A DNA stretch of 64,000 bases from contig MWBZ01000011.1 of NCBI GenBank assembly GCA_002069765.1, forward strand, positions 1 to 64,000, given 5' to 3'. Position numbers and translations under genes: made by a program. This document shows positions 5,172-13,055 of the stretch, piece after piece. Numbering within the stretch: the stretch's first letter is position 1; the number at the start of each line of letters is the position of its first letter. Source of the DNA: a bacterium ADurb.Bin243. Lineage in GTDB: Bacteria > Muiribacteriota > UBA9980. Under the pieces are notes generated by a model that worked only from the letters and a program-made list of their open reading frames with translations, was not told the DNA's origin and did not search any database.

Positions 5172-7181
5172 TCAATAATTTATAGAATAAAGGCCGTAGC
5201 CGTTGCCTGAGGCTATCGCTTTAGTTTTCGACTTTATAAATTCCTTAAAAATCGCGGACTTGCGTTCGTCGTCGAACCCGCGGGCCGCTATTTCGAGAGC
5301 GCGATCTTTCGCCAGGATATGCGTTATTCCGGCGGACTTCATCTTTTCAGATAAAAAATCACTCGCCGCGGATCCAACCGCGGCGTTTTTTCCGTCAAAA
5401 TATGAATGCACGGCGATTTCGAGTTCGCAAGGCTCAAAAACGTCGCGCCATATATAATTTTTCCGGGCGTAATAAAGCCTCGGCTCGTAAACCGTCATAA
5501 GCTTTACGTCCAGCAGGCTTTCGTAAATTTTATTGAATTCGCTTATGCAGTGGTAAGGCGCGAGATTGCGCGTTAAAAAACTTTCGGCGGCCTCTTCGCC
5601 TTTAAGATAAGCCATGGGCGAACAGCTAAAAAACAGTACGGCGGCCGGCCATGCGTTCAGAGCTAAAAAGCATGCGAATAAGAATATAAACGTTTTTTTC
5701 AGCGCGGCCGGTTTCAAATTTTCAGCTGCGAATTTCAGCCCCAGCGCGGAAATTATATAAAACACAGGCGCGGCAGCCAGAAAAAACCTCGTCGATTGCG
5801 CCCCGAGGACGAATAAATAATACAGCGCGAATATGGCCGCCAGGGCTAAAACATTAAAATTTAACGGCGCCCCGTTCCGGCCCGCCCTGTAAAGCGCGTA
5901 AAAAAAGAACGGTATCATGGCGAAAAAAGTCATGCCCATAACGCCGTCGTAGTATAAGTTTCCGTGATAGCGCGAGTTCATCATCGAATCGTAAGGGTAT
6001 AAAAGCTTATCGATAAATCCGCGGCCGCCGCCGACGCGTTCGAGCGTGGCCAGATATGTGTCCATATGATCGTAACGCACGGTTTCAAAAGGCATATATG
6101 AATCGAAAAACGGATAAAAAGGGTTCGAAGTGAAATAAAAATTAGCCGCCATATAAGGCGCGAAAACAAGCGCCGTAATAAATATTAGTTTCACAATATA
6201 TAATGCTTTGCGCGGATCAGCCGCTTTAATTTTAAAAAATACGACGGCGTAGAATATAGCGGCTATCATAAGCCCGGTATATTTCGCGCACGCAGCCGAG
6301 CCCAGGAAAAAAGCGCACAGGACATAATTTCCGGAAATCAGACACAGCGCGGAAACCGTAAAATAAAACATGAGGCCGAGGTCTATATATGCCCACGAGC
6401 ACAGCACCAGAGCCTGCGGGTGGGCCAGCAGCAGAAGCGAAGCGAGCCCGGCGGAGCCGCCGGTAAAATCCGGATGCAGGTGTTTTTTAAAATCGAAGCT
6501 TAAAACGGCCAGGCAGCAGGCGATCAAAAAAGTAAAGTGAAACGTAGAGCAAAGGGAGTCTTTGCCAAACATCATAAAAAACGAATATATCATATTGACG
6601 AGCTTCGGATGCCCTGAAAAGTGAATATCTTCAATGAAGAAAAGGCCGCCGTTTTGAATATAACGCTTGGGCACCTCGAGCTGATAGGCCATGGCGTCCC
6701 AGCCGAACTGCGGCACTAGAGAAGAAACGAAAGCGAAAACGCACAGGGCGGCAGCCAGCGAATGCACGGCAAGGATCGGAACGGACAGGTATGTAATATC
6801 GTAAATATATCTTTTTATTCCGGATAAAACTCCCGAAAAAAATCCGGTTGAAAATAAACCTTCCGAAAGATATTCGTCGCACCGGCCGCCGCGATAAAAC
6901 AAAAAGGCCTGAAACAGAATCGGCGCCAGCAGCACCAACGCGAATGAAATCCGGCACGCTACTTGAGCGGCGAACACTAAAAATATAGCCGTTGAAAAAA
7001 TGACGATTCCGGCCGCCAGACGTAAAACTATTTTAAAAACCGGGCCGTAGCCGGCAACGTCTAAAAGCTCAGCGCCGTACTTTCTGACCGAATAAAAAAA
7101 AATGCCGCCGTAATTGTAAGCGGATATTAAAAAAAGAAAATATATCAGCCATTTTTGAAAATCGATGAAATTAATTAGCAT
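5172..7181 (-). CDS. Polytopic GT-C-like membrane glycosyltransferase
   Basis: A large inner-membrane protein with about 12 predicted hydrophobic segments spread over the first 530 residues and a soluble C-terminal part. The first luminal loop contains FGWDAMAYQLEVPKRYI, resembling the D-x-x-x-Y signature loop of GT-C lipid-linked-sugar transferases (ArnT/PMT-like, RgtA-type). It probably moves a sugar from a polyprenyl-phosphate donor onto an envelope glycan; donor and acceptor are unknown. I chose ATG at 7181 because a minus-strand promoter (7189-7218) puts the transcript start at about 7182, giving a leaderless mRNA. In-frame TTG 7280 and ATG 7244 lie upstream of that transcript start and have no ribosome site. 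Convergent with hisC, 34 bases apart, no clear terminator. Confidence 0.75.
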   Translation of the reverse strand: MLINFIDFQKWLIYFLFLISAYNYGGIFFYSVRKYGAELLDVAGYGPVFKIVLRLAAGIVIFSTAIFLVFAAQVACRISFALVLLAPILFQAFLFYRGGRCDEYLSEGLFSTGFFSGVLSGIKRYIYDITYLSVPILAVHSLAAALCVFAFVSSLVPQFGWDAMAYQLEVPKRYIQNGGLFFIEDIHFSGHPKLVNMIYSFFMMFGKDSLCSTFHFTFLIACCLAVLSFDFKKHLHPDFTGGSAGLASLLLLAHPQALVLCSWAYIDLGLMFYFTVSALCLISGNYVLCAFFLGSAACAKYTGLMIAAIFYAVVFFKIKAADPRKALYIVKLIFITALVFAPYMAANFYFTSNPFYPFFDSYMPFETVRYDHMDTYLATLERVGGGRGFIDKLLYPYDSMMNSRYHGNLYYDGVMGMTFFAMIPFFFYALYRAGRNGAPLNFNVLALAAIFALYYLFVLGAQSTRFFLAAAPVFYIISALGLKFAAENLKPAALKKTFIFLFACFLALNAWPAAVLFFSCSPMAYLKGEEAAESFLTRNLAPYHCISEFNKIYESLLDVKLMTVYEPRLYYARKNYIWRDVFEPCELEIAVHSYFDGKNAAVGSAASDFLSEKMKSAGITHILAKDRALEIAARGFDDERKSAIFKEFIKSKTKAIASGNGYGLYSINY

Positions 7182-7188
7182 CGGTCTT

Positions 7189-7218
7189 ATTATATAACAA
7201 CCAAAATAAAAAAAGCAA
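7189..7218 (-). promoter_or_regulatory. Promoter giving a leaderless transcript of the glycosyltransferase gene
   Basis: On the minus strand TTGCTT (7218-7213), an 18-base spacer and TATAAT (7194-7189). Exactly seven bases (AAGACCG) separate the -10 box from ATG at 7181, so transcription would begin at or next to the start codon. Confidence 0.6.
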
Positions 7219-7248
7219 TAAAAACCTTCCGATAAGGCGCCCATCGTA

Positions 7249-7277
7249 TTGACTTTTATTGCAAAATCTGGTATTAT
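7249..7277 (+). promoter_or_regulatory. Promoter of the prepilin peptidase gene, near-leaderless
   Basis: TTGACT (7249-7254), a 17-base spacer and TATTAT (7272-7277). The expected transcript start is about 7284, only about three bases before ATG 7287. No ribosome-binding site fits in that space. Confidence 0.65.
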
Positions 7278-7286
7278 CAAGCCGTT

Positions 7287-8135
7287 ATGTTAGATTTCGA
7301 ATCGGTCATATTAAACTCGACGGAAATATTAAAGCTGGCGATGCCCGTTTTAATAGTCCTGTTCGGGCTTCTCGTCGGGTCGTTTTTAAACGTTTGCATT
7401 TACAGGCTCGCTAAAAACGAGTCGATCGTCTATCCAAATTCGCATTGCCCAAAATGCTGGACCCGCCTTGGTTTTTTAGACCTTTTTCCGGTCGTGAGCT
7501 ATGTGGCGCTCGGCGGAAAATGCCGATACTGCGCCAGGCCATTTTCGCCGCGCTACGCGTTCGTCGAGCTTCTGACCGCCTATGTTTTTTTCGCGGCGTA
7601 TATGATCTGCGGCTTTAACCTTAAGCTGGCGGTTTACTTATATATGTTCTCGGTCTTCATAGTCATCACGTTCATAGATTTCGACTGGCAGATAATACCG
7701 GATCAGATAACTATCAACGGCACGGCCGCCGGGCTTTTGCTGTCGTATATATGCTGGCTCCGTCCGGATTCGGCGGCGCTCACTTTTTACACTCCGCTAA
7801 ACGATTCTATCTGGGGCGTGCTCAGCGGCGGCGGAATATTATATTCCATTTCAGTGCTCAGCGGCGGCGGAATGGGCGGCGGCGACGTAAAGCTCGCGGC
7901 GCTCATCGGGGCTTTTCTCGGATGGAAAACCACTTTGCTCGGCCTTTTACTTGCATGTTTCATAGGCTCTTTTTTCGGAGTTTCCATGATAATTCTGGGT
8001 TATAAAAAAAGAAAAGACTGCGTGGCGTTCGGGCCTTATATAGCTCTTGGAACGGCCATAGTAATGGTTTATGGAAACCAGGAAACCATAAATTTATATT
8101 TTAAATTGGTTGATTTGATGACCGGCATCTATTAA
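7287..8135 (+). CDS. Type IV prepilin peptidase (A24 family)
   Basis: An inner-membrane aspartic protease that cleaves the leader peptide of type IV prepilins and pseudopilins and methylates the new N-terminus. It starts with GLLVGSFLNVCIYR, the usual N-terminal helix. The cytoplasmic zinc domain with two CxxC pairs follows (C54/C57 and C79/C82), typical of bifunctional PilD-type enzymes. The catalytic aspartates are in FIDFDWQIIPD (about 130) and in the GxGD box GGGDVKL (D199). Length is 282 residues if ATG 7287 is used; ATG 7341 just before the first helix is an alternative. Two pseudopilin genes follow directly, its likely substrates. Confidence 0.92.
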   Translation: MLDFESVILNSTEILKLAMPVLIVLFGLLVGSFLNVCIYRLAKNESIVYPNSHCPKCWTRLGFLDLFPVVSYVALGGKCRYCARPFSPRYAFVELLTAYVFFAAYMICGFNLKLAVYLYMFSVFIVITFIDFDWQIIPDQITINGTAAGLLLSYICWLRPDSAALTFYTPLNDSIWGVLSGGGILYSISVLSGGGMGGGDVKLAALIGAFLGWKTTLLGLLLACFIGSFFGVSMIILGYKKRKDCVAFGPYIALGTAIVMVYGNQETINLYFKLVDLMTGIY

Positions 8136-8192: not shown

Positions 8193-8681
8193 ATGAACAT
8201 ATTTAAAAAATACTTATCGTTAAAAAACAAAAGAGCGTTTTCGTATATAGAAGTTCTGACCGCCACAGTAATGCTCGCTATCGTAATAGTTCCGGTCACG
8301 AGGCTTCTTTTGTTTTCTTCATGGGGCACCCGTGAATCTTCCGAATACGTCCTGGCTTATAATCTCGCTTCAGATAAAATCGAGCAGATCAAGATGCTTC
8401 CCTTCGACAGGATAGAAAACGAAGAAAACGACATATTCACCAAAGAAGAGGCCGATAAAATACCTGATTTCCATAAATTCATGCAGCTTTACAAGTCTAG
8501 GTACAAGCTCGATTTTAAATTTTACGACTCGCACCAGGGCATTTTCGCAAGAACCGTCACCATAGACGATAAGCTCGATCCATACAACAGCCCGCCAAAG
8601 ATAAAAAAAGTGACCGTCAACGTTTACATGAAAGGCTCTAAAAAAGTCCTTGCCACAATTAATACGCTTATAGGAGAGTGA
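8193..8681 (+). CDS. Type IV pseudopilin (prepilin-type N-terminal methylation domain)
   Basis: The N-terminus has the prepilin signal: a short basic leader ending in KNKRA, then FSYIEVL with the conserved Glu at +5 and a hydrophobic helix of about 20 residues. Gly before the mature Phe is replaced by Ala, which some minor pilins tolerate. The 130-residue C-terminal domain is polar and of unknown fold, as in minor pilins PilV/PulI. It has an AAGGA ribosome site and lies between the prepilin peptidase and a second pseudopilin, so it probably belongs to the same pilus or secretion apparatus. Confidence 0.82.
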   Translation: MNIFKKYLSLKNKRAFSYIEVLTATVMLAIVIVPVTRLLLFSSWGTRESSEYVLAYNLASDKIEQIKMLPFDRIENEENDIFTKEEADKIPDFHKFMQLYKSRYKLDFKFYDSHQGIFARTVTIDDKLDPYNSPPKIKKVTVNVYMKGSKKVLATINTLIGE

Positions 8682-8686
8682 CGGCG

Positions 8687-9328
8687 ATGTTTTGCGCATA
8701 TCACGCCGCGCGCGGCCATAATAAAGCCTTCACGCTTATAGAAGTAATGATAGCCATAACGCTTACCGCTTCTATAATGACCGTCGCATATACCTTTCTG
8801 TTCTTTTCCAACCGCACTTTTTCCAAAGGCATGGATAAAATCGACATACAAAAAAAAATCAGGAGCGCCATGAATAAAATGTCCTCCGATTTACGCTCTG
8901 CGAAAGAAATTATCAGGGCCGACAAAGACTGCCTGGAATTTAAAAAATTCATAGACGACCGCGAAGAGCAGCAGCATATCAACCTCACCGGCGATACGAT
9001 GAGCCGGCTTATAAAATACGAACTCAAGAAAAAACATTCGTCTAATTCTGACGCCATAATAATGACTGTCGATAATCAAGAATATAAGCTCATGCAGTTC
9101 GAATCCATAGACGAAAACCTTTTCGAAGCTTACACTTATAACAACGACGACGCCCTCATACCTTTCGACGGAAAGATAAACGACAGCATCCAGCGTTCAA
9201 AAATATCGCTCGTAAAAGTCAATTTCAAAATCAAGCAGGGAAACACCGAAGTTATATTGACCACCTCTATAAACCCCAGATACCTGTTCGGCTTCAAACA
9301 GCAGCCCTACTGGAATTACAACAAGTAA
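8687..9328 (+). CDS. Type IV pseudopilin, PilW/PulJ-like
   Basis: The prepilin signal is clear: basic leader with HNKA before FTLIEVMIAITLTASIM, the +5 Glu and the hydrophobic helix. The C-terminal domain (about 170 residues) is charged and fits the larger minor pseudopilins (PilW/PulJ) in size. Start: GTG 8678 overlaps the stop of the preceding gene but sits only one base from the AGGAG at 8672-8676. ATG 8687 has a spacing of about 10, so I prefer it. As with its neighbour the residue before the cleavage point is Ala rather than Gly. Confidence 0.82.
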   Translation: MFCAYHAARGHNKAFTLIEVMIAITLTASIMTVAYTFLFFSNRTFSKGMDKIDIQKKIRSAMNKMSSDLRSAKEIIRADKDCLEFKKFIDDREEQQHINLTGDTMSRLIKYELKKKHSSNSDAIIMTVDNQEYKLMQFESIDENLFEAYTYNNDDALIPFDGKINDSIQRSKISLVKVNFKIKQGNTEVILTTSINPRYLFGFKQQPYWNYNK

Positions 9329-9374: not shown

Positions 9375-10196
9375 ATGAACAAAACCGGCAAAACGAAAGG
9401 CAGCTCAAAACCGGCGTCATTAAAAAAGACCGGAAAATCAAACAAAACGAACGCGGCGAAAAAGTCTTCCACGGTCAGAAAAACGGACGCCAGAAAAATA
9501 AAAAAAGATACCGCCGTAGTGCTTTTATCGGGCGGAATGGATTCGGCCGCGGCGCTCGGAGTTCTGGCGCAAAAATATCAGCCGGCGGCCCTCCATCTTA
9601 ATTACGGCCAGCGCACCGAAGCAAAAGAGCTGGACTGCTTCGTTCGCCTGTGCGACCATTACGGCATAAAGCAAAGGCTGATAGTCGACGTAAGTTACCT
9701 GGAACAGATTGGCGGCTCCTCGCTCACGGACCATAAGATGATAGTCCCGAAAGCCGATCTGGATTCGAATGAAGTCCCGAACACTTACGTTCCGTTCAGA
9801 AACGCCCATATTCTCTGCATAGCCACTTCATGGGCCGAAGTGATCGGCGCTAAAAGAATATTCATAGGCGCCGTCAGCGAAGATTCTTCAGGCTACCCCG
9901 ACACGCGCCCCGAATTTTACGAGGCGTTCGAAAAAGTCATTAAAACCGGAACGCGCGCCGGCGGCGCCATTAAAATCGAAACTCCGGTAATAGACCTTTC
10001 AAAAGCCGAAATAGTAAAACTCGGCCTGAAACTTAAAGTGCCTTTCAAATACACCTGGAGCTGCTATGTTGGCAACGAAAAAGCCTGCGGAGTATGCGAT
10101 TCATGCGCGCTCCGCCTCCGCGGCTTCGCCAGGGCCGGGGCCAAAGACCCTATAGAATACGAACAGACGGTTTTTAAAACCGAAATATTCGTGTAA
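9375..10196 (+). CDS. queC: 7-cyano-7-deazaguanine synthase with a basic N-terminal extension
   Basis: QueC makes preQ0 from 7-carboxy-7-deazaguanine, ammonia and ATP in queuosine synthesis. The PP-loop SGGMDS is at 52-57. NYGQR, a PFRNAH segment and the C-terminal zinc site ([15 protein letters not shown]) are all typical. Odd feature: about 45 residues rich in Lys, Ser, Thr and Ala precede the catalytic domain. No in-frame start lies closer to it, and the ribosome site CGGAGA supports the distal ATG. The gene sits between pseudopilins and the pilus ATPase fusion, with no other queuosine gene present; the co-location may be accidental. Confidence 0.92.
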
Positions 10197-10221: not shown

Positions 10222-10271
10222 GCGGTTTTGCGGATTTAATGTCATATACAAAAGAGAAGGAGCTGTATTTT

Positions 10272-13055
10272 ATGGCGGAAGATAAAATGAACTCGGAATA
10301 CAATAAACAGGCCGAAAAAATGTCGCAGCAGATAGCCGAGCTTGAAACCAGAGCCGACAGGGCTGCCATTTTAAAATTGATAGAATGCTTCCATCACGAA
10401 ATCTGGGCGGTAAGAAAACAAGCTTCCCTGGCTCTGGTAAGGTGCGGCAGAAAAAATCGCGAAACGCTTGAAACCATCAACGAATACCTGCTCAAAAGCT
10501 CCTTCAAAAACGAAGACGACGTTTACTGGGCGCTGCAGACGGCCGCGGGAATACGCGTGAACAACGCGGCGGGATACCTCATGAAATGGGCGGCCGGCGA
10601 TTCATATCCCAAAAATTACCTGGCTCATCTCATAATAGCCCTGGCAAAGATAAACGACACTTCTTCCGTATCGTTTTTAATCGAATCGCTCGCAAACGAA
10701 AACTGGATAGTTAGAAAAGAAGCTTCCTCGGCGCTCATAGCCTTCGGCAGAAATATCATACCTCAGCTTCAAAGCGCGTTTTCCAACGAGAAGATCGAAA
10801 TCAGGACATGGATTTCAAAGATCATAGGCCAGATACTGGGAAAAGACGCCTATTCTTTTTTTAAAAATATGCTGGGCTCCGAGCGCAAGGAAATGCGCTA
10901 CTACGCTATCTGCGCCCTTTCGGAAATAGACGATCCCCAGGCGATAGCCGCCATAGCGGCCAAAGTGGCCGACCCGTCGTGGCTCATCAGAATACAGACG
11001 GCCGACGTAATGGAAAAAATGGGCGAACCCGCGCTGGCGTACCTGAAAAAAAATATAGAAGAAGGCAGCTCCGACGACAAGTTCCATTCCATAAAAATAA
11101 TACAGAAAATCATGAAGGACAAAGCTTTTTCAACTATAAGAGATTTTCTGAACCTCGACGACACTGAAACTAAAATATTATCGCTTTCTGCATTGGCGGA
11201 GCAAAATGATGAAACGGTGTTCAACCTGCTGTGCGATTCGCTTACCGATCCCAATTATTTAATACAACGCCACGCCGCCAACCTGCTTATTCATTCGGGA
11301 AACCAGGTGGCCGATAAAATCCCGGCGGCTTTCGAACGCACGCAGAACGACACTCTGCGCTACTGGTTTATAGAAGTGCTCGGAGCTTTCGACACCCGAA
11401 ACGCCTTCCGCGCCCAGCGGGCTATATTCGGCGCGGCCGCCAAAAGGCAGAAAATACAAATATTGCGTTCCATAAACTGCACGGGCGACTCCGCGCTCGA
11501 CCAGCTTAAAACGGCATTTTTAATTAAGACGCTCGCGGACGAAGGCTATTCGGTTAGAAACGCCGCGTTCAACCAGCTCGTACGGTTCGGGCATTTAAAG
11601 GTCGGCTTCGGTTCCGGCGCGGCCGGCCTCAACGACGTCCTTCTCAAGATACGCGAAACGGGCCTCGAGCACCAGGGCAACGCTCATGTAAAAGAGCTTA
11701 TAAAATCAAATCCGGCAGACGGCTTAGAGGCGTCTCCGGCCGAAGGGCCCTCCCGGACGGACGGCGGGAGCTCTTTCATTCCGGCCGCTCCCCACGCGCC
11801 GGCCTTTCTTACCGGCCAGCAGCATCCGGCGGGCGTTTTTTCCGCCGCGGAAGCGCCGGTCTACGAAACGCGCGAATACCCTCTCACCATTGAGGAAATA
11901 TTAAAGCAGGCCGTAGAAAAAAAGGCTTCAGACATTCATTTCGCTTCGGATTATCCTCCTACGTTTAGAATAAACGGCCAGATAGAATTTCAAGATTACC
12001 TTCAGACGCTCGAGCCGGAACACATACGCCACCTGGCCTATCAGGTTTTAAAACCTCACGCGAGGCACGCTTTCGAAGTGGGCCAGGAGCTCGACACTTC
12101 TTATGAAATCAAAGGTCTCGCGCGTTTCCGCGTAAATATGTACATGGATATGCGCGGCATCGGCATGGTATTTCGCGTAATTCCCTATGAAATACCCGAC
12201 CTCGACACGCTCGGCGTTCCGGCTATAATCAAAACGCTCGCGCAGAAGCAAAAAGGGCTCGTCCTGGTTACGGGGCCTACGGGCTCCGGCAAGTCCACGA
12301 CGCTCGCTTCCATGATAAATTTTATAAACAGGAACAGGAAAGCGCATATAATAACCATCGAAGACCCAGTTGAATTCGTCCATAAGCCTGTTTTATCAAA
12401 GGTCACCCAGCGCGAGCTCAACACATCCACACGCTCTTTCGCGGCCGCCCTGCGCTCTTCGCTTCGCGAAGACCCCGATATAATCCTCGTCGGGGAAATG
12501 CGCGATCTGGAAACTATAGAATTGGCCATCACGGCCGCTGAAACCGGGCACCTGGTTTTAAGCACCGTGCATACTTCGTCGGCGGCCAACACCATAGACC
12601 GCCTGATAGACGCTTTCCCCGCCGACAAGCACTCGCAGGTGCGCGCGGCCCTTACGGAAGGCCTTATAGCCGTCGTAGCGCAGTCGCTGGTGCCTAAAAA
12701 GAGCGGCGGAATGGTGGCGGCGTTCGAAATTATGACGATGACCAGCGCTATAGGCAACCTCATAAAAGAAGGCAAAACCACGCAGATAAAAGATTATATG
12801 CTCGCCGGCAAGCAGTACGGAATGCAGATACTCGACGATTCGCTCGCCGAACTGATGTCGCGCGACGAAATAACTTTCGAAGAAGCCATGGCGGCGTCTT
12901 ACAATAAAGACGACTTTAAAAAGCGTTATGGAACGGCTCAAAACGCCCAGAACGCGTCTTCACGAACGCCCAATTTCAAGCCTGGCGCCGAAGACGAATC
13001 GCTCTACGGGCTCAAGCAAAAAACGCCGCTCAATAAGCCGCCGGTTAAAAAATAA
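10272..13055 (+). CDS. HEAT-repeat / PilT-type retraction ATPase fusion
   Basis: A 927-residue fusion. Residues about 20-450 are tandem HEAT-like helical repeats with recurring sequence themes such as VRKEASSALI, IRIQTADVMEKMG and YSVRNAAFNQLV. A low-complexity linker (about 470-530, Pro/Ala/Gly-rich) follows. The C-terminal 390 residues are a complete PilT/T4P retraction ATPase: ASDIHF near its start, Walker A GPTGSGKST (K674), Asp box EDPVEF, Walker B ILVGEMRD with Glu near 740, and His box HLVLSTVHT. PilT powers pilus retraction at the inner membrane. The HEAT part probably docks a partner or scaffolds the hexamer; that is inference. ATG 10272 is chosen for its AAGGAG site nine bases upstream; ATG 10239 has none. 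The pseudopilin and prepilin peptidase genes lie just upstream. Confidence 0.93.
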   Translation: MAEDKMNSEYNKQAEKMSQQIAELETRADRAAILKLIECFHHEIWAVRKQASLALVRCGRKNRETLETINEYLLKSSFKNEDDVYWALQTAAGIRVNNAAGYLMKWAAGDSYPKNYLAHLIIALAKINDTSSVSFLIESLANENWIVRKEASSALIAFGRNIIPQLQSAFSNEKIEIRTWISKIIGQILGKDAYSFFKNMLGSERKEMRYYAICALSEIDDPQAIAAIAAKVADPSWLIRIQTADVMEKMGEPALAYLKKNIEEGSSDDKFHSIKIIQKIMKDKAFSTIRDFLNLDDTETKILSLSALAEQNDETVFNLLCDSLTDPNYLIQRHAANLLIHSGNQVADKIPAAFERTQNDTLRYWFIEVLGAFDTRNAFRAQRAIFGAAAKRQKIQILRSINCTGDSALDQLKTAFLIKTLADEGYSVRNAAFNQLVRFGHLKVGFGSGAAGLNDVLLKIRETGLEHQGNAHVKELIKSNPADGLEASPAEGPSRTDGGSSFIPAAPHAPAFLTGQQHPAGVFSAAEAPVYETREYPLTIEEILKQAVEKKASDIHFASDYPPTFRINGQIEFQDYLQTLEPEHIRHLAYQVLKPHARHAFEVGQELDTSYEIKGLARFRVNMYMDMRGIGMVFRVIPYEIPDLDTLGVPAIIKTLAQKQKGLVLVTGPTGSGKSTTLASMINFINRNRKAHIITIEDPVEFVHKPVLSKVTQRELNTSTRSFAAALRSSLREDPDIILVGEMRDLETIELAITAAETGHLVLSTVHTSSAANTIDRLIDAFPADKHSQVRAALTEGLIAVVAQSLVPKKSGGMVAAFEIMTMTSAIGNLIKEGKTTQIKDYMLAGKQYGMQILDDSLAELMSRDEITFEEAMAASYNKDDFKKRYGTAQNAQNASSRTPNFKPGAEDESLYGLKQKTPLNKPPVKK

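Follow-up and report, generated by a model that had tools for sequence, protein, structure and literature searches.

The window, a stretch of 64,000 nucleotides (positions 1 to 64,000, forward strand, of contig MWBZ01000011.1 from bacterium ADurb.Bin243, assembly GCA_002069765.1), carries a gene in which an array of HEAT repeats, a linker and a PilT-type ATPase follow one another in a single reading frame, downstream of a prepilin peptidase gene and two minor pilin genes. We refer to this gene and its product as HEAT-PilT. The features of the locus are as follows.

7287..8135, + strand: prepilin peptidase, PilD (A24_N, 5.1e-31; Peptidase_A24, 8.2e-19)
8193..8681, + strand: candidate PilV-like minor pilin (TIGR02523, 1.2e-4, below cut-off)
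8678..9328, + strand: prepilin-type minor pilin, GspJ-like (N_methyl, 8.3e-7; TIGR02532 above cut-off)
9375..10196, + strand: QueC-like gene between the pilins and HEAT-PilT (synteny in the genus; the QueC name comes from reading the sequence only)
10272..13055, + strand: HEAT-PilT gene, 927 amino acids (start ATG 10272; alternative upstream ATG 10239)
10275..11591, + strand: HEAT solenoid, residues 2-440, ~13 repeats (Pfam HEAT_2, self-similarity, AlphaFold2 helices)
11706..11876, + strand: disordered Pro/Ala linker, residues 479-535 (pLDDT below 50, linker dN/dS of 0.35, composition)
11877..12923, + strand: PilT-type ATPase, residues 536-884, N2D plus CTD (TIGR01420; ~45% identity to solved PilT)
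12273..12299, + strand: Walker A, GPTGSGKST
12348..12383, + strand: Asp box, IITIEDPVEFVH
12480..12506, + strand: Walker B, IILVGEMRD
12537..12584, + strand: His box, AETGHLVLSTVHTSSA
12747..12770, + strand: AIGNLIKE, counterpart of the PilT AIRNLIRE motif, 6/8 identical

The open frame extends from 10239 to 13055 on the forward strand and would encode 938 amino acids if counted from its first ATG. The ATG at 10272 is preferred over the one at 10239: each of the four genus members has a Shine-Dalgarno-like AGGAG or GGAGG 8-12 bases 5′ of this start, and in two of them an in-frame stop lies shortly 5′ of it; residues are numbered here on the 927-amino acid protein. The preliminary description had proposed that HEAT repeats, a Pro/Ala linker and a complete PilT ATPase reside in this one gene, and Pfam, NCBIfam, AlphaFold2 and the sequence motifs bear this out. 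A Pfam domain search places HEAT_2 (E=1.8e-27), HEAT and HEAT_PBS in the N-terminal half and T2SSE (E=1.5e-51) in the C-terminal half. The AlphaFold2 model of the full-length monomer has a pLDDT of 72 and a pTM of 0.44, and its placing of the HEAT half relative to the PilT half is therefore untrustworthy.

The HEAT_2 (PF13646) match scores 95.9 bits, above the gathering score of 27.7, and the repeats are arranged in three-repeat blocks of 92-100 residues with block markers near residues 44, 144, 236, 328 and 425. Offset against itself by 92 residues, the array gave a mean BLOSUM score of -0.17, against about -0.86 (sd 0.11) for shuffles at nearby shifts, and we read this 92-residue period as blocks of three ~31-residue repeats. 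AlphaFold2 predicts residues 2-440 to be an all-helical solenoid (HEAT-only model, pLDDT 83.9, pTM 0.69), with further helices after the solenoid up to residue 478; in the linker that follows, Pro and Ala account for 19 of the 57 residues. Fold comparison of the HEAT part returned loose matches to alphaRep designs and other HEAT proteins, with TM-scores of at most about 0.5. The part shares its ~31-residue helical repeats with HEAT_2/HEAT_PBS proteins and with alphaRep, the nearest solved match, but differs from them in being fused to a motor ATPase. The HEAT residues that are conserved from one family to another resemble residues required for the fold rather than a clear binding patch, and a viral fold search with HEAT-PilT gave noteworthy matches to the ATPase part only, the rest being unspecific repeat matches.

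The motor half is that of a retraction ATPase. It scores 455 bits (E=1.3e-136) with the NCBIfam model pilT_fam, TIGR01420, against a curated cut-off of 319 bits, and AlphaFold2 predicts the PilT fold C-terminal to the linker. Walker A, the Walker B glutamate, the Asp box and the His box are all present. Like Geobacter PilT4 and P. aeruginosa PilT, the protein comprises N2D and CTD; AIGNLIKE, identical at six of eight positions, stands in the place of the PilT motif AIRNLIRE. Its 927 residues exceed the ~350-390 of PilT by virtue of the N-terminal solenoid and linker, and its gene lies outside the pilB-pilC cluster. We regard HEAT-PilT as a variant form of PilT and not as a new type of machine. 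The motifs are not complete in every protein of this architecture: an 898-amino acid HEAT-PilT of family f3 (locus L097, 175-2871, genome G005) keeps the GKS of Walker A, has lost the Walker B glutamate and the His box, and is likely a pseudo-ATPase.

HEAT-PilT is full-length in all four genomes of the genus examined, the other three proteins being 95, 80 and 80% identical to that of the window; the relatives with names are JPNA_metabat.86, Ca. Wallbacteria GWC2_49_35 and UBP16 UBA6123. Compared with the nearest species, the window's gene has a dN/dS of 0.057 in the HEAT part, 0.018 in the ATPase and 0.35 in the linker; in more distant pairs, synonymous sites are close to saturation. Selection therefore keeps both halves, and the linker much less so.

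A prepilin peptidase and two pilin-like genes had been noted upstream, and their identities are upheld by Pfam and NCBIfam. The order PilD, two minor pilins, QueC, HEAT-PilT recurs in genome G003 and also in the remaining genus members, over the part that their contigs cover. A weak terminator-like hairpin separates the QueC-like gene from HEAT-PilT, which leaves co-transcription with the pilins uncertain. On the other side of pilD, a 702-amino acid membrane-protein-like frame (window 5172-7280, - strand) is 55% conserved in G003 and has no Pfam or NCBIfam match. The preliminary description had suggested looking for pilB, pilC and pilM near HEAT-PilT; these are absent nearby and lie on other contigs. 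The same genome possesses a standard pilB-pilT-pilC-pilA cluster on another contig, as well as more T2SSF, PilM and secretin genes elsewhere, and because the ordinary cluster is located apart from it, HEAT-PilT represents an extra, accessory motor.

A profile built from 12 HEAT-PilTs was searched against 40 genomes of the window's phylum and detected the two parts within a single frame in 33, some frames being cut by contig ends; the architecture is less isolated than had been supposed. Its carriers belong to five families (f1, 4/4; f5, 21/24; f7, 3/3; f8, 1/1; f3, 4/4), and two additional f5 genomes have HEAT-PilT fragments at contig ends; the same search found none in f2, f4 and f6. Several genomes of the phylum have two or three paralogs. 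Among ~490 genomes outside the phylum (~340 plus a set of ~150, mostly from one large genus with few PilT genes), no best match extended into the HEAT part, although this check was shallow, with 2 and 5 candidates per genome scored, and does not prove absence. Other N-terminal extensions of PilT also occur within the phylum. In f7, PilTs of 549 and 581 amino acids (L019, 934-2583; L062, 5007-6752) have an extension that resembles one or two HEAT-like repeats by eye and has no Pfam match, and the extra N-terminus of a 544-amino acid PilT of f6 (L022, 970-2604, genome G008) resembles, by reading, a degenerate second N2D domain.

The closest relative of the window's PilT domain outside the genus, an f7 HEAT-PilT of ~1150 amino acids, has nearby a gene of PilD-N/pilin type (L050, 783-1778), in which a prepilin-peptidase N-terminal domain without a Peptidase_A24 match precedes a pilin-like stretch, as well as another pilin-like gene. 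By eye, no pilus genes were recognized alongside the HEAT-PilT loci of f5, f3 and f8 or those of the 915- and 917-amino acid forms of f7, and the idea of a conserved pilus operon at every HEAT-PilT was rejected, such genes being seen at the f1 and f7 (~1150 amino acids) loci alone. Because the other loci are without recognized pilus genes, the case for a pilus role relies on the ATPase together with the loci of f1 and f7 (~1150 amino acids). In f5 genomes (L052, 6292-9318; L054, 1869-4913) a HEAT protein of ~1010 amino acids lies tail to tail with HEAT-PilT.

Phylogenies of the two halves suggest that the fusion probably arose more than once. In the tree of the PilT domain, the window clade groups with the ~1150-amino acid f7 HEAT-PilT and the short f7 forms (support 89), and a second clade contains 29 HEAT-PilTs from f5, f3, f7 and f8 (support 85). 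Constraining all HEAT-PilTs, a group set by architecture before the quick tree was made, to one clade was marginally rejected by the AU test (p=0.046), and a single fusion for all of them was set aside on this result and on the HEAT tree, which requires at least two changes on well-supported branches. There, the window's array groups (support 99) with a pair of HEAT-only proteins from the same genus rather than with other HEAT-PilTs; 27 of the latter, most of them belonging to the second clade, cluster apart with weak support. HEAT alignments are poor and many branches long in this tree. The number of origins is uncertain, because uniting the window clade with the 29-member clade was not rejected (p=0.136). 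More than one fusion event is the simpler reading of both trees, and loss of the ATPase from paralogs could also account for the HEAT tree. The proteins closest to the window's HEAT array are HEAT-only products of 782 and 725 amino acids encoded in its own genome (L099, 3949-6297; L100, 5225-7402), and a search of the neighbors of HEAT-only paralogs for a partner recognized nothing related to pili.

We favor, at a probability of roughly 0.55, the interpretation that HEAT-PilT is an accessory, type IVa-style hexameric retraction ATPase whose HEAT repeats form arms for docking or regulation. In current models, a retraction ATPase turns a PilC-like protein that sits in the pore of its hexamer (PMC6858323, PMC5424180). 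The C-terminal 350 residues of HEAT-PilT would assemble into the hexamer typical of PilT and would pull such a platform protein, while each of the six subunits would carry a HEAT solenoid on a flexible linker just before N2D. These arms would occupy the place of N1D/MshEN in the extension ATPases PilB and GspE; in PilB, N1D precedes N2D, and HEAT-PilT resembles both proteins in having an additional domain in that position but differs in that its motor is of the PilT type and the added domain is a HEAT solenoid. Most likely the arms would tether the motor to a partner protein or permit a partner to switch it, such that it would be engaged solely by certain pili or under certain conditions. The neighboring pilin and peptidase genes suggest that it may serve a pilus or pseudopilus built with the adjacent minor pilins. 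Docking of a regulator or of the pilus base by the HEAT part, as the preliminary description had conjectured, draws support from the stronger constraint on this part than on the linker, from the apparently repeated fusion and from the PilB/GspE-like N-terminal placing; recurrence across the phylum and the probable repetition of the fusion likewise suggest that the arm has a real job in docking or regulating the motor.

A different function for a second motor is that of PilU, which normally accompanies PilT (PMC6762196). HEAT-PilT would then stack as a second hexamer on ordinary PilT and add force, the arms merely holding it against PilT or PilB. It is, as PilU is, a second PilT-family ATPase besides the ordinary PilT, which this genome encodes beside PilB, PilC and PilA, but it is nearer in sequence to solved PilT (~45% identity) than to solved PilU (37%), PilU has no repeat arm, and the AIRNLIRE motif, a marker of PilT that is absent from PilU (PMC6762196), is retained at six of its eight positions. 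We consider this helper role unlikely. Also doubtful, and slightly more so, is a task apart from pili, in which the arms would bind cytoplasmic or envelope cargo and the ATPase would remodel it in the manner of other T2SSE-family ATPases. The absence of recognized pilus genes from most HEAT-PilT loci of the phylum and the location of the genome's HEAT-only paralogs away from pilus genes are in keeping with such a task, whereas the adjoining pilin and peptidase genes in f1 and its f7 sister lineage and the intact PilT motifs argue against it. That the array is a neutral passenger on a motor acting as plain PilT seems improbable: genomes of this HEAT-rich lineage encode many HEAT proteins, and between families HEAT diverges faster than PilT, yet the purifying selection on the HEAT part is strong (dN/dS 0.057) and the fusion appears to be repeated. 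Finally, an assembly or frameshift artifact joining two genes, which separate HEAT and ATPase genes in all close relatives were to have revealed, is ruled out, since the window, the three other genus genomes (80-95% identity) and other families share the same single frame, the halves being joined in 4/4 genomes of the genus and 33/40 of the phylum.

The accessory retraction motor proposed here may belong to a larger set. An f5 PilT of ~600 amino acids (L063, 4263-6071) was found by domain scan to have an N-terminal cyclic-nucleotide-binding domain and MshEN, and L064 and L067, also of f5, lie close to it in the PilT tree, the domains having been scanned in L063. This protein is similar to HEAT-PilT in adding an N-terminal domain of regulatory type to PilT, and differs from it in possessing cyclic-nucleotide and MshEN domains in place of HEAT. 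We tentatively suggest, as a possibility short of even odds, that retraction motors whose N-terminal arms are exchangeable make up a class extending across the phylum. Within it, HEAT would have been fused at least twice independently and sister motors would have taken the cyclic-nucleotide and MshEN domains, so that a separate signal or partner would address or switch each motor. To our knowledge, neither PilT nor PilU has a domain dedicated to input, both being plain motors, and we found no published description of HEAT-PilT in the open literature searched, a scope that leaves out most subscription journals. Work on type IV pili is still asking how a retraction motor is selected and switched, and a little-known lineage in which, as we propose, the motor itself incorporates long arms for docking would offer a direct handle on the partner of the motor or on the pilus that it serves.
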